Source: a virus. Taken from it: a stretch of 50,476 nucleotides of DNA. A model generated the notes under the pieces. That model saw only the letters and a program-made list of their open reading frames with translations, was not told where the DNA came from and did no database searches. Shown one piece after another: positions 1 through 50,476 of the stretch (its first letter is position 1; each line of letters opens with the position of its first letter). The translations under genes and the position numbers were made by a program. The stretch lies in IMG/VR virus record IMGVR_UViG_3300003635_000005, positions 1 to 50,476 of that record; one strand, given 5' to 3'.

Positions 1-99
1 CACGTTTGACCTCCCGGACGGATCCGAGAGCCGCGAGTATCCCGCGGGCACGTGGTTTATGGGTGTCCAATTCACGGACGAGGCGTGGGACCGTATCAA
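1..99. repeat. Left copy of 99-bp terminal direct repeat (assembly overlap)
   Basis: These bases are identical to 50378-50476. The reading frame of the protease gene continues unbroken when the two copies are merged, so the molecule is circular or circularly permuted. A repeat of exactly 99 bp lying inside a coding region is what a k-mer based assembler leaves on a circular contig. I therefore read it as an assembly overlap and not as a biological terminal repeat. Confidence 0.95.
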
Positions 100-931
100 A
101 TCCGGTGACTTGACCGGGTTTAGCATATACGGTGAGGCCGAAAACACTCCCGTTGCGGAGATCCTCGGCCTTAGCGAGTCCGCCAAAGAGGTGGACCGCT
201 CCGGTGCCGCCGAGGTGACGCTTGCCAAAGATGACGAGGGCACCGACAAGACAAACATGGAGGACACCAGCAAGCAACTCTCCCCGGACGTGCTTGCCTC
301 GGTGGCCGCCGAGTTTGAGACCTTTCTTGAGGAGACCGGAGCCGACGAGGAGGACGCCAGCATGGCGGACTTTCTTGAGTGGGCCGAGGACTCTCAAGAG
401 GAGGACGAGGACGAGGAGGACACCGAGGAGGACGGCACGGACGAGGACGAGGACAACGAGGACGAGGAGACAAGCATGAGCGACAACGACAACGACAACG
501 AAAGCAAGGAGGAGGAGGCCAGCGAGGCCGAGACCTCCAACGAGACCGAGGACGAGAGCACGGAGGATATGCTCAAGTCCATCAAGAGCACCGTGGAGGA
601 CAACAACGAGGCCGTCAAGTCGGTCAAGAGCCGCGTGGACACTCTTGAGGAGCGCGTTGAGGATCTTGAGAGCAAGTCCGCCGACGAGACCGAGGACGGC
701 ACGGAGGAGACCGCCGAGGCCAGCGAGGCCGAGGCCGAAAAGACCGAGGAGGATCTCACCGAGGCCGCCGAGGAGGCCGTCAAGTCCATCCTCGGGCTTG
801 ATGACCTCCCCGATGACCCCGAGGAGCGGCAAGAGGTTGTCCGCAAGGGTCTCGTGGAGGCCGAGGACGGTGCGGAGGAGGTCCAGACAATCGGTTTCAC
901 CGAGGAGGACATTGAGGGGGCAATCCAATGA
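1..931 (+). CDS. XkdF-like head maturation protease, C-terminal part with acidic coiled-coil tail (continues from 49785)
   Basis: This is the C-terminal part of a 507-residue protein that starts at GTG 49785 and crosses the contig joint; codons here begin at base 2. The segment GTWFMGVQFTDEAW...GFSIYGEA matches the end of the XkdF-type prohead protease domain, whose catalytic Ser is expected in GFS. The rest (from about base 180) is extremely rich in Glu and Asp with heptad-like helices around bases 560-700. That part may serve as a scaffold or delivery domain, as in phage protease-scaffold fusions; this is inferred. The stop overlaps the capsid gene start (ATGA at 928-931), which fits a head-assembly operon. 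Confidence 0.85.
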   Translation, partial: TFDLPDGSESREYPAGTWFMGVQFTDEAWDRIKSGDLTGFSIYGEAENTPVAEILGLSESAKEVDRSGAAEVTLAKDDEGTDKTNMEDTSKQLSPDVLASVAAEFETFLEETGADEEDASMADFLEWAEDSQEEDEDEEDTEEDGTDEDEDNEDEETSMSDNDNDNESKEEEASEAETSNETEDESTEDMLKSIKSTVEDNNEAVKSVKSRVDTLEERVEDLESKSADETEDGTEETAEASEAEAEKTEEDLTEAAEEAVKSILGLDDLPDDPEERQEVVRKGLVEAEDGAEEVQTIGFTEEDIEGAIQ

Positions 932-2127
932 GCGTTGCACGCAATCACAAGAGCGGAGTTGTAAAGAGCGCCGGTGCTGGCGGAGAAATCAACAACCGTG
1001 AGGCGCAAGTGGCGCACCGCCGGTGTTTCCACAACCTCATGGACGAGGTGCAAAAGGGTGCTGGCCTCCCCGGAGACCAAGTGCCCTATTGGGATCCGAT
1101 GGGATTCCTCAACTCCCGTGGTGAGGCCCTTGACCTCAAGACGCCTCTTTTCAAGAAGTATCAAGAGGCGTTTGAGACCTTCAACCGTATGCAACGGGAG
1201 GGTCACGCGGTCAAGGACGCCGCCGAGGAGGTGAGCAAGCAAATCGGCACCACGTCCTACTCCATGCCGATTTTCTTCACCCCGGACGTTTTCATCACCG
1301 ACGAGGAGGACACTCCTCTTGCGGACATGATGGCCCGGACGGCGGTGCAAGAAAACCAAATCAAGGTGGACGAGATCACCGAGACCGGCAACGCCGCCTC
1401 GTTTGCGGAGCCGAGTGGCGGCGGTGAGACGTGGCCGGAAAATGACGACACCACGGCCAACCTCACGTATGACGTGGTGAGTTACGGACGGCAAAACTCC
1501 GTCACGGACTTTCTCCAACTCTCAGCCAGCACGCTCCGGTCTCACCGGGCACTCACCGAGGAGCAACAAGTCCGTGCAATCCGGCAATATGAGGAGGCAC
1601 AACTCATTGTCGGCAAGGGCAACGTGGACACCGGCGTGACGGCCAATGACGCCAGCGGGTTTGACGGCCTCACGGATCTTGCGGCCAGCGAGGGCAACAC
1701 CACGGACGCCTCGGGGAGCACAATCTCCATTGATGACGTGCGCCGGCAAATCGAGAGCCTCCGGCGCAACGGCACCGCACGTGACAACATCCTCCACGTG
1801 ACGGACCACAAGACTTTCCGTGACCTCCATACGGATCTCACGGACTTTACCCGGTATGAGAGTCCGGGGAGCGAGTTGGACTTTGGGTTTGAGACGCTCA
1901 TGATTGACGGCACTCCGGTCATGGAGAGCCACGGATCTCCCTACGTTGACGGGGAGCGTCTCTTTACCTCGTTTGACGCCTCGGCGCACTACATGGGTAT
2001 GTTGCAAGACGTGACCATGCACCCGCTGGCGCGTGACTCTCCGCAAGAGCAATTCGCAACGGACGCTTACGGCACGCTCGTGAGTGAAAGCCCCTCGCGT
2101 GTTGAGGTCACGCACAACCTCGCATAG
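928..2127 (+). CDS. Major capsid protein, HK97-like fold
   Basis: This is a 399-residue protein directly after the maturation protease, the position and size typical of an HK97-fold major capsid protein. It has a charged N-terminal region with long helices (about residues 15-110), then the mixed alpha/beta body with segments such as DVRRQIESLRRNGTARDNIL and HVTDHKTFRDL that resemble the spine helix and P-domain of halovirus capsid proteins. The start ATG overlaps the upstream stop by four bases. Synteny is the main support, since I cannot run a fold search. It should be the most abundant virion protein. Confidence 0.82.
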   Translation: MSVARNHKSGVVKSAGAGGEINNREAQVAHRRCFHNLMDEVQKGAGLPGDQVPYWDPMGFLNSRGEALDLKTPLFKKYQEAFETFNRMQREGHAVKDAAEEVSKQIGTTSYSMPIFFTPDVFITDEEDTPLADMMARTAVQENQIKVDEITETGNAASFAEPSGGGETWPENDDTTANLTYDVVSYGRQNSVTDFLQLSASTLRSHRALTEEQQVRAIRQYEEAQLIVGKGNVDTGVTANDASGFDGLTDLAASEGNTTDASGSTISIDDVRRQIESLRRNGTARDNILHVTDHKTFRDLHTDLTDFTRYESPGSELDFGFETLMIDGTPVMESHGSPYVDGERLFTSFDASAHYMGMLQDVTMHPLARDSPQEQFATDAYGTLVSESPSRVEVTHNLA

Positions 2128-2139
2128 AGGATCTCACTC

Positions 2140-49162: not shown

Positions 49163-49437
49163 AAGACACCAGCGAGATCCTCAAGGAGGCCGGCGGGTAT
49201 GAGGGCATAGTCAAGGGCATGGACGAGGATCTTGCCCGGACTAAACGGCAACGTGAGGTGGAGAGTTGCTTTGGCAAGAGCCTCCCGGCGGTGCTCCGGG
49301 AGTTGCACGGCAAGGAGGACTCAAAGGCGGCCATGCTCCGCCGTATCAACGAGGCGTTGGAGGCCAACAACTTTGACGGCTCACTCTCTCGGCCCACGCT
49401 TTACTCGTGGCTTGACACCGTGGAGTTGGACGCTTAG
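49159..49437 (+). CDS. Small helix-turn-helix protein, 92 residues
   Basis: Coupled by ATGA to the membrane gene. The C-terminal half (SKAAMLRRINEALEANNFDG, then LSRPTLYSWLDTVEL) is a likely helix-turn-helix with the recognition helix at RPTLYSWL. The N-terminal half is a charged helix. It may regulate the head operon starting at 49785. Confidence 0.52.
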   Translation: MKDTSEILKEAGGYEGIVKGMDEDLARTKRQREVESCFGKSLPAVLRELHGKEDSKAAMLRRINEALEANNFDGSLSRPTLYSWLDTVELDA

Positions 49438-49784
49438 GCCAACCTTCTTAATGGAGTGCCGTCTTGCCTTACTTGCGTCTCCCACCGGAGACGTATGCCG
49501 GTCTCGGGCCGGTTGTCAGAGGCACCACGTCTCCCCACTCGGGCACGTGGTCTCCCCCACCGCCACCGACGAGGGCCAGCACGCGGGGTGCTAAAGCCGG
49601 CTTTTCTCCGGCAAACACCTCCGCACGCTCCACCCTTTCCCCTACCCACTCCCTTCATGCGATTAGTGGAGACCTCCGTGCTCCTTAGTGCGAGAGTGTT
49701 AAGCGATTGTGTAAACCGTTTAGTCACGGCCAGCGGCCCGCTTTTTACATCACATTAAGTAAGGAGGCCCTTGAGGAGGCTTGT
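49438..49784 (+). promoter_or_regulatory. Non-coding, pyrimidine-rich region before the protease gene
   Basis: No gene is supported; open frames here are basic and unlike the rest of the proteome. It has hairpins CGTCTCC-CACC-GGAGACG (49476-49493) and GCCGG-CTTTTCT-CCGGC (about 49591-49607), a C/T-rich tract (about 49610-49655), and an A/T-rich end (TTTTTACATCACATTAAGTA) that probably contains the promoter of the head operon. It could also hold a packaging or transcription termination signal. Confidence 0.45.
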
Positions 49785-50476
49785 GTGGCAAGCGAGACCC
49801 ACAAGGACGAGGAGGTAAGCAAGCCACTCCCCGGTGGCTCCTTTGAGGGGTGCGTCCGGCGTTTTGGACAAGATCCGGGGATTGATGACCCCGAGGCGTT
49901 TTGCGGTTGGTTGGAGCAACAAGCGAAAGAGGGCAACGAGGCCGTCCTCAATTGGGACGCCGAGGAGGATACCGTTGAGGATCTCATTGAGGCCCTCAAT
50001 GACCCCGAGGCGGAGAAAGTGCTCCAAAACCTCACGGTCACATACGTGAGCGGCGTTGAAAATCCGGCTCAAGACTCGCAATGGGTCATGGCCAAAGACG
50101 CCGATGACCGCGGAGCGGATTGGGGTGTCACCGCACCCCTTGTGGTCAAGGAGGGAGATCTCCCGATGACCGACGAGGACGGTGAGGAGGAGCAAAAGGC
50201 GTGGGCACCCGTCTTAATCCCCAACGAGACCGACAAGCAAGGTGACGTTATCCCGGTCAAGGAGATTGAGACGGCGGCCCATGACTTTCTTGCCGAGTAT
50301 CGGCAAGTGGATACGGACCATGACCTCCTCGCTGGCAAAGGCACGCCAATTGAGAGTTGGACACTCAAGACGGACACCACGTTTGACCTCCCGGACGGAT
50401 CCGAGAGCCGCGAGTATCCCGCGGGCACGTGGTTTATGGGTGTCCAATTCACGGACGAGGCGTGGGACCGTATCAA
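49785..50476 (+). CDS. XkdF-like head maturation protease, N-terminal part (continues at base 2)
   Basis: Starts at GTG 49785 with GAGGAGG six bases upstream. The first 130 residues are acidic and helical, not part of the protease fold. From about residue 130, AWAPVLIPNETDKQGDVIPV, KEIETAAHDFLAEYR and VDTDHDLL follow the XkdF-type protease, with the catalytic His expected in DTDHD; the Ser motif GFS is encoded after the contig joint. The protease would trim scaffold and capsid protein during head maturation. The full product is 507 residues. Confidence 0.82.
   Translation, partial: MASETHKDEEVSKPLPGGSFEGCVRRFGQDPGIDDPEAFCGWLEQQAKEGNEAVLNWDAEEDTVEDLIEALNDPEAEKVLQNLTVTYVSGVENPAQDSQWVMAKDADDRGADWGVTAPLVVKEGDLPMTDEDGEEEQKAWAPVLIPNETDKQGDVIPVKEIETAAHDFLAEYRQVDTDHDLLAGKGTPIESWTLKTDTTFDLPDGSESREYPAGTWFMGVQFTDEAWDRI
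50378..50476. repeat. Right copy of 99-bp terminal direct repeat (assembly overlap)
   Basis: Identical to bases 1-99. Removing one copy gives a circular sequence of 50,377 bp. Confidence 0.95.

Follow-up and report, generated by a model that had tools for sequence, protein, structure and literature searches.

Near-complete loss of CAG outside a seven-base context and evenly spaced RCCAGCR and RGATCY sites in the genome of a haloarchaeal tailed virus

Haloviruses are known to lack CTAG, GATC, and many 6-bp palindromes, which has been ascribed to escape from host restriction (PMC7230728, PMC8651126). Palindrome avoidance was described for the HF1 group of haloviruses in a 2020 paper that did not focus on non-palindromic words (PMC7230728), and motif purging was reported for archaeal tailed viruses (PMC8651126). 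A survey of prokaryotic viruses found site elimination mainly in non-temperate double-stranded DNA viruses and almost only for orthodox Type II sites (PMC6286503). Short words are also the targets of phosphorothioation (PT) defences, i.e., Dnd-Pbe in haloarchaea and Ssp. Their targets can be as short as 3 bp on one strand and include G*ATC in haloarchaea, C*CA, C*AG (a motif of gut bacteria), and G*AAC/G*TTC; a mere fraction of the target sites is modified. Here, we analyzed the IMG/VR record IMGVR_UViG_3300003635_000005 over its full length of 50,476 nt (hereafter the window), which, judged by its encoded proteins, is a haloarchaeal tailed virus. Its trinucleotide CAG (CTG on the other strand) is nearly confined to the context RCCAGCR, and two motifs, RCCAGCR and RGATCY (R, purine; Y, pyrimidine), are regularly spaced along the genome. 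Palindrome loss is shared with the published haloviruses; in the window, however, mostly non-palindromic words are purged, a trinucleotide is lost outside a 7-bp context, and the two exempt motifs recur at even intervals. The CAG purge is of the same kind as the known word purging of haloviruses but exceeds it.

A previous sequence-only reading of the window had claimed that CAG/CTG occurs almost only as CCAGC/GCTGG. The rule is real and stronger than it was put there. On both strands together, we counted 242 CAG/CTG, compared to 1,810 expected from dinucleotides and 1,543 expected from BJ1, phiCh1, and HJTV-4, three haloviruses of similar G+C content that we take, from annotation or general knowledge, to be temperate. 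CCAGC accounts for 224 of these sites, leaving 18 others, and 222 of the 224 lie within RCCAGCR, so that the permitted context is narrower than the CCAGC named in that reading. All exceptions that the same reading had listed are among the 18, within about 10 bases of the positions given (884, 1523, 10540/10544, 10902, 15169, 15606, 41837, 46322, and 48036).

1..50476: CAG/CTG purge outside RCCAGCR, 20 sites left versus ~1,490 expected from the three temperate haloviruses
10530..10550, + strand: two exceptions at a gene start, ACAGA at 10540 (common to the sister contigs L027 and L028) and ACAGC at 10544

The constraint acts on DNA rather than on codons, as had been proposed. Synonymous-codon shuffling, the control set beforehand for the claim, gave 616 non-CCAGC CAG (60 shuffles, minimum 585), whereas the same coding stretches of the window hold 16; the CCAGC share of CAG was 12% in the shuffles and 93% in the window. 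GCC AGC is the spelling of 40 of the 64 Ala-Ser pairs followed by a purine and of 0 of the 27 followed by a pyrimidine; for Thr-Ser, ACC AGC accounts for 33 of 62 and 0 of 31 cases, respectively. The rule therefore reads seven bases over three codons. The statement that Gln is encoded by CAA except between two C proved too strong: among the Gln codons with C on either side, 27 are CAA and 24 are CAG, as the purines at the outer positions count as well. Intergenic DNA (~5 kb) contains 19 CCAGC and one other CAG.

Related viruses were examined next to the window, and three sister contigs (L011, L027, and L028) keep the rule; in 14 kb, they have 63 RCCAGCR and 11 CAG elsewhere. L011 shares ~97% DNA identity with the window in most aligned stretches, and L027 and L028 share 82%. 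Comparison of the window with L027 or L028 shows that about 40% of RCCAGCR sites were lost or gained, through jumps between RCCAGCR and a wide range of unrelated words. When the list of purged words derived from the window (see below) was applied to the sisters, 4-base words were ~20-60 times and longer words 10-40 times rarer than in other haloviruses. An assembly artefact was considered and rejected, as the three contigs carry separate IMG/VR sample numbers and all follow the rule. Taken together, the sister contigs render an artefact of assembly, mutator activity, and codon bias unlikely; the CAG rule is long-standing and selected.

CAG is only one of the words concerned. We defined a purged word as a minimal word of 4-6 bases present at less than 12% of the codon-shuffled expectation, and by this definition 121 words are purged, 104 of which are non-palindromic.

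1..50476: ~120 further words purged, among them AGCT (0 copies), CTAG (0), TCGA (4), GTAC (2), GAAC (4), CGCCC (1), and CCAAG (2)

By the same procedure, the three temperate haloviruses have 2-10 such words and six virulent ones 30-59; the relatives G002 and G003 have 86 and 6, respectively. Words thus depleted relative to a codon-preserving expectation are what restriction-site avoidance by a virulent double-stranded DNA virus requires; the mostly palindromic, orthodox Type II sites that the same phenomenon typically involves, and that dominate the published survey (PMC6286503), make up the minority here. Palindromes of 6 bp behave in an all-or-none manner: most are at or near zero, and GGATCC, CCGCGG, GCCGGC, TGGCCA, CACGTG, CCATGG, and TTGCAA are at or above normal. 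In total, 900 of the 4,096 hexamers are missing (~13 expected). GATC is nearly absent outside RGATCY (one YGATC versus ~616 expected), and GAA/TTC is reduced to 239 copies versus ~1,400, with mostly GAAA surviving; unlike RCCAGCR, the GAA survivors are not evenly spaced. Escape from a protospacer adjacent motif of a clustered regularly interspaced short palindromic repeats (CRISPR) system was tried as a cause of the GAA/TTC loss and rejected: GAAA/TTTC is about as frequent as normal (174 versus 184 per 50 kb), so that a TTC motif does not fit. Among the known PT motifs, CAG, GAAC/GTTC, and GATC (outside RGATCY) are purged, and CCA and CCGG are kept. The long list of purged words, the limit to RCCAGCR, and the spacing described in the following had not been seen in the sequence-only reading.

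Both exempt motifs are enriched compared to the temperate haloviruses, RCCAGCR 4-fold and RGATCY 2.5-fold; before a purine, the Ala-Ser codon pair of RCCAGCR is in excess over other combinations (40/64 versus 16/156). Both are also spaced far more evenly than expected by chance. Random placement gave a coefficient of variation (CV) of the gaps of ~0.99, and none of 3,000 trials reached the observed values.

1..50476, 134 sites on + and 88 on -: RCCAGCR lattice, 222 sites, mean spacing 227 bp, gap CV 0.72
50,377-bp genome unit: RGATCY lattice, 184 sites, mean spacing 274 bp, gap CV 0.63

Successive 5-kb stretches of the window hold 22, 24, 22, 17, 24, 24, 21, 22, 22, and 23 RCCAGCR sites, and the density is similar in intergenic DNA (20 sites in ~5.1 kb). 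Among 873 words of the window, GATC, CAGC, CCAGC, and CCAG were the most regular. Spacing was random for the equally enriched words CTTGA, CTCAA, and GCAAG, as it was for the remaining kept palindromes taken together. Neither lattice depends on the other in its placement. The regularity of RCCAGCR shows mainly when both strands are pooled, and neighboring sites showed no clear orientation preference. Chi-like polarity and Type III-style orientation pairs were looked for and gave no signal.

Synonymous choice produces the even spacing of both motifs. We listed every place at which the encoded protein permits a motif and related usage to the distance to the nearest other used site. RCCAGCR is used at 201 of 421 possible sites, and its usage rises from 28% at 7-40 bp to 34% (40-80 bp), 53% (80-150 bp), 65% (150-300 bp), and 75% (>300 bp). 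RGATCY is used at 172 of 368 possible sites, with 17, 41, 44, 61, and 97% in the same five bins (31/32 in the last). When labels were shuffled within site classes, 0 of 3,000 shuffles were as regular as observed. Nearly all control words lacked a trend of usage with distance. The exception was CTCAY (413 coding sites), which is used in 27% of cases under 60 bp and in 88% over 200 bp (n = 16), and is a possible third lattice word. Across nine haloviruses with ~270 words each, the CAG-core words and GATC of the window were the only clear outliers, and no comparable lattice was found in the eight other haloviruses scanned.

Trinucleotides are purged in further relatives as well. The distant relative G006 (L015) has lost CAG almost completely (6 versus ~321) and without an exemption for RCCAGCR (0 versus 11), which indicates that CAG as such can be a target; CTC is likewise reduced to 10 versus ~560. 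Expressed as a share of expectation, CAG and CTC stand at 2% each in G006, CTC at 5% in G002, GCA at 16% in G007, and CAA at 23% in HCTV-2. In G002 (L020-L022, IMGVR_UViG_3300048114_000266), 143 CTC/GAG remain versus ~2,740; the survivors are mostly CTCCY, with gaps more even than random (CV 0.74, z -3.2). In the same genome, nearly all remaining CCAGC lies in CCCAGCR, which complements the rule of the window. Its plain gap spacing gave weaker hints for CCCG (z -5.3) and CTCC (z -3.4); in the synonymous test, no word fell below -3, in a scan that left out CCCG as too frequent.

The window begins and ends with the same 99 bp, which points to a circularly closed unit of ~50,377 bp that looks complete. 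The 64 called genes are all on the + strand. The major capsid protein, which served as the query for finding kin, and the large terminase (TerL; 41-47% identical to the TerL of HCTV-2 and HHTV-2) are homologous to those of Saparoviridae-like haloarchaeal tailed viruses, and by these similarities the window represents a distant relative of HCTV-2 and HHTV-2.

1..99, + strand: direct terminal repeat, copy 1, sign of a circularly closed genome unit
50378..50476, + strand: direct terminal repeat, copy 2
928..2127, + strand: major capsid protein, 64% identity to HCTV-2 and HHTV-2
40900..42571, + strand: large terminase in two frames, frame change near 41838
46123..48543, + strand: portal protein fused to a Mu F-like domain

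Aligned to the HHTV-2 protein, TerL runs from 40942 to 41838 in frame 1 and from 41804 to 42571 in frame 2. As the change of frame coincides with the exceptional ACAGG at 41837, this exception may reflect an error in the sequence or a genuine frameshift. Further recognizable products are the tail tube, Hjc resolvase, AAA, and VWA proteins. No DNA methyltransferase was recognized among 63 proteins of the window (Pfam, and the PHROG families shown); the sole PHROG match with a methyltransferase name covers 29 residues of the protease. HCTV-2, unlike the window, is annotated with three methyltransferases. The open reading frame of the prohead protease (59-931) lacks the N-terminal part (the match covers 238-557 of the 564 positions of its PHROG), and the gene probably spans the ends of the circular unit. 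A 321-bp stretch (14562-14882) with 78% DNA identity to the HVTV-1 baseplate gene is a possible exchange; no other near DNA match to a sequenced phage was found for the first 20 kb. Regarding the host, plasmid records gave no near match, and the genome contigs scanned contained no provirus.

Of the three causes offered by the sequence-only reading, restriction escape is the best supported, as more than 100 other words are purged likewise and purging splits virulent from temperate haloviruses. In our favored explanation, hosts attack unmarked short words, and RCCAGCR and RGATCY become marked and are needed at intervals; we hold the case for it to be evenly balanced. Long-standing selection by host DNA-targeting defences reading CAG, GATC, and on the order of 100 other short words would have caused the purge. 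With no recognizable methyltransferase, the virus would remove the target words, mostly by synonymous change. CAG in RCCAGCR and GATC in RGATCY would be kept; these sites would be modified on the virus DNA, more likely by a host enzyme than by an unrecognized viral one, and the modified sites would escape attack. If the two motifs also serve as marks due every few hundred bases, they would be kept as even lattices. The exempt contexts call for a reason both for their safety and for the demand at intervals, and modification as a self mark would supply both. Protection of CCAGC by modification, another of the three causes offered, would agree with this: RCCAGCR and RGATCY do behave as actively maintained, even sites, as a needed mark would look. 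By analogy to known systems, a defence with three- or four-base targets could purge CAG. More tentatively, and with somewhat less than even confidence, we suggest that some archaeal viruses carry lattices of evenly spaced "self" marks (RCCAGCR at ~230 bp and RGATCY at ~270 bp), set by synonymous choice with all other copies of the core words purged, by which they would answer a mark-counting or scanning defence through marking at intervals.

Several points weigh against this explanation. The regularity of RGATCY recurs in the sister contigs (P ~0.002), but that of RCCAGCR is not significant in these short contigs; it has the same direction in two of three, and in L027 alone RCCAGCR is irregular. 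Part of the enrichment may be a squeeze from the loss of alternative words, and many longer motifs together, rather than CAG itself, could make up what is purged. In the literature consulted, we found neither a 3-bp CAG restriction system in archaea nor RCCAGCR as a methylation motif. Haloarchaeal PT at GATC was found without any further context, so that RGATCY is no match for it; the window further differs from PT systems in that CCA is kept.

A rival explanation is plain restriction-site avoidance, in which the clade would have met many restriction-modification, bacteriophage exclusion (BREX), and phosphorothioation systems whose overlapping specificities happen to cover every CAG context but RCCAGCR, leaving RCCAGCR and RGATCY as mere leftovers. 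We regard this as rather unlikely, though with some weight behind it: palindrome avoidance by haloviruses is already published, and kin purge CAG contexts piecemeal, i.e., GCAGC in HHTV-2 and HF2, CCAGG in HF2, and GCAG in G007 and L030, and G002 purges RCCAGC yet keeps CCCAGCR. Leftovers, however, should be spaced randomly and without distance preference, whereas both motifs are strongly regular and other leftovers (the kept palindromes, GAAA, and CATC) are not. In another rival explanation, the two motifs would be bound by a DNA-organizing, packaging, repair, or recombination protein in need of regular sites; this would have nothing to do with defence, and the purge would be a separate matter. 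Spacing independent of orientation and the intergenic RCCAGCR sites agree with such a protein, and there is a precedent in the DNA uptake sequences of Haemophilus and Neisseria, which are short, over-represented, and evenly spaced in coding DNA. Those sequences are bacterial tags with a long consensus, whereas here a virus carries two motifs, and each is all that remains of a purged core. That both protein sites should be the only surviving contexts of purged words would be a coincidence, the two lattices ignore each other, and a Chi-type strand bias is lacking (134 versus 88 sites with all called genes on +); we consider this explanation improbable.

Far less probable still are two further explanations. 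A context-dependent deaminase or mutator that turns CTG into TTG and spares RCCAGCR, close to the cytosine deamination proposed in the sequence-only reading, would account for the over-representation of CAA and TTG in the window. No single deamination explains the elimination of AGCT, CTAG, TCGA, and CGCCC or the loss of GAA to GAG, the RCCAGCR sites gained and lost between relatives alternate with many different words, and mutation does not space sites evenly, which leaves this pressure a very slim chance. Codon usage or transfer RNA adaptation could be read from the codon counts (Gln, CAA 345 versus CAG 29; Glu, GAG 1,601 versus GAA 40). It is already contradicted by the failure of usage-preserving shuffles and by a rule that depends on the bases of neighboring codons and applies in every frame as well as between genes, and we give it next to no credence.

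Virus genomes record the DNA-targeting defences that they have encountered, and the record in the window is unusually rich. Its non-palindromic words, purged trinucleotide, and exact exempt contexts could serve to infer haloarchaeal defences purely from sequence. A new kind of signal is represented by the even lattices, and the test of usage versus distance is applicable to any virus. If the lattices mark modified sites, defence or evasion would depend on the spacing of marks along the DNA, a question that also bears on PT systems, where only a fraction of sites carries the mark.

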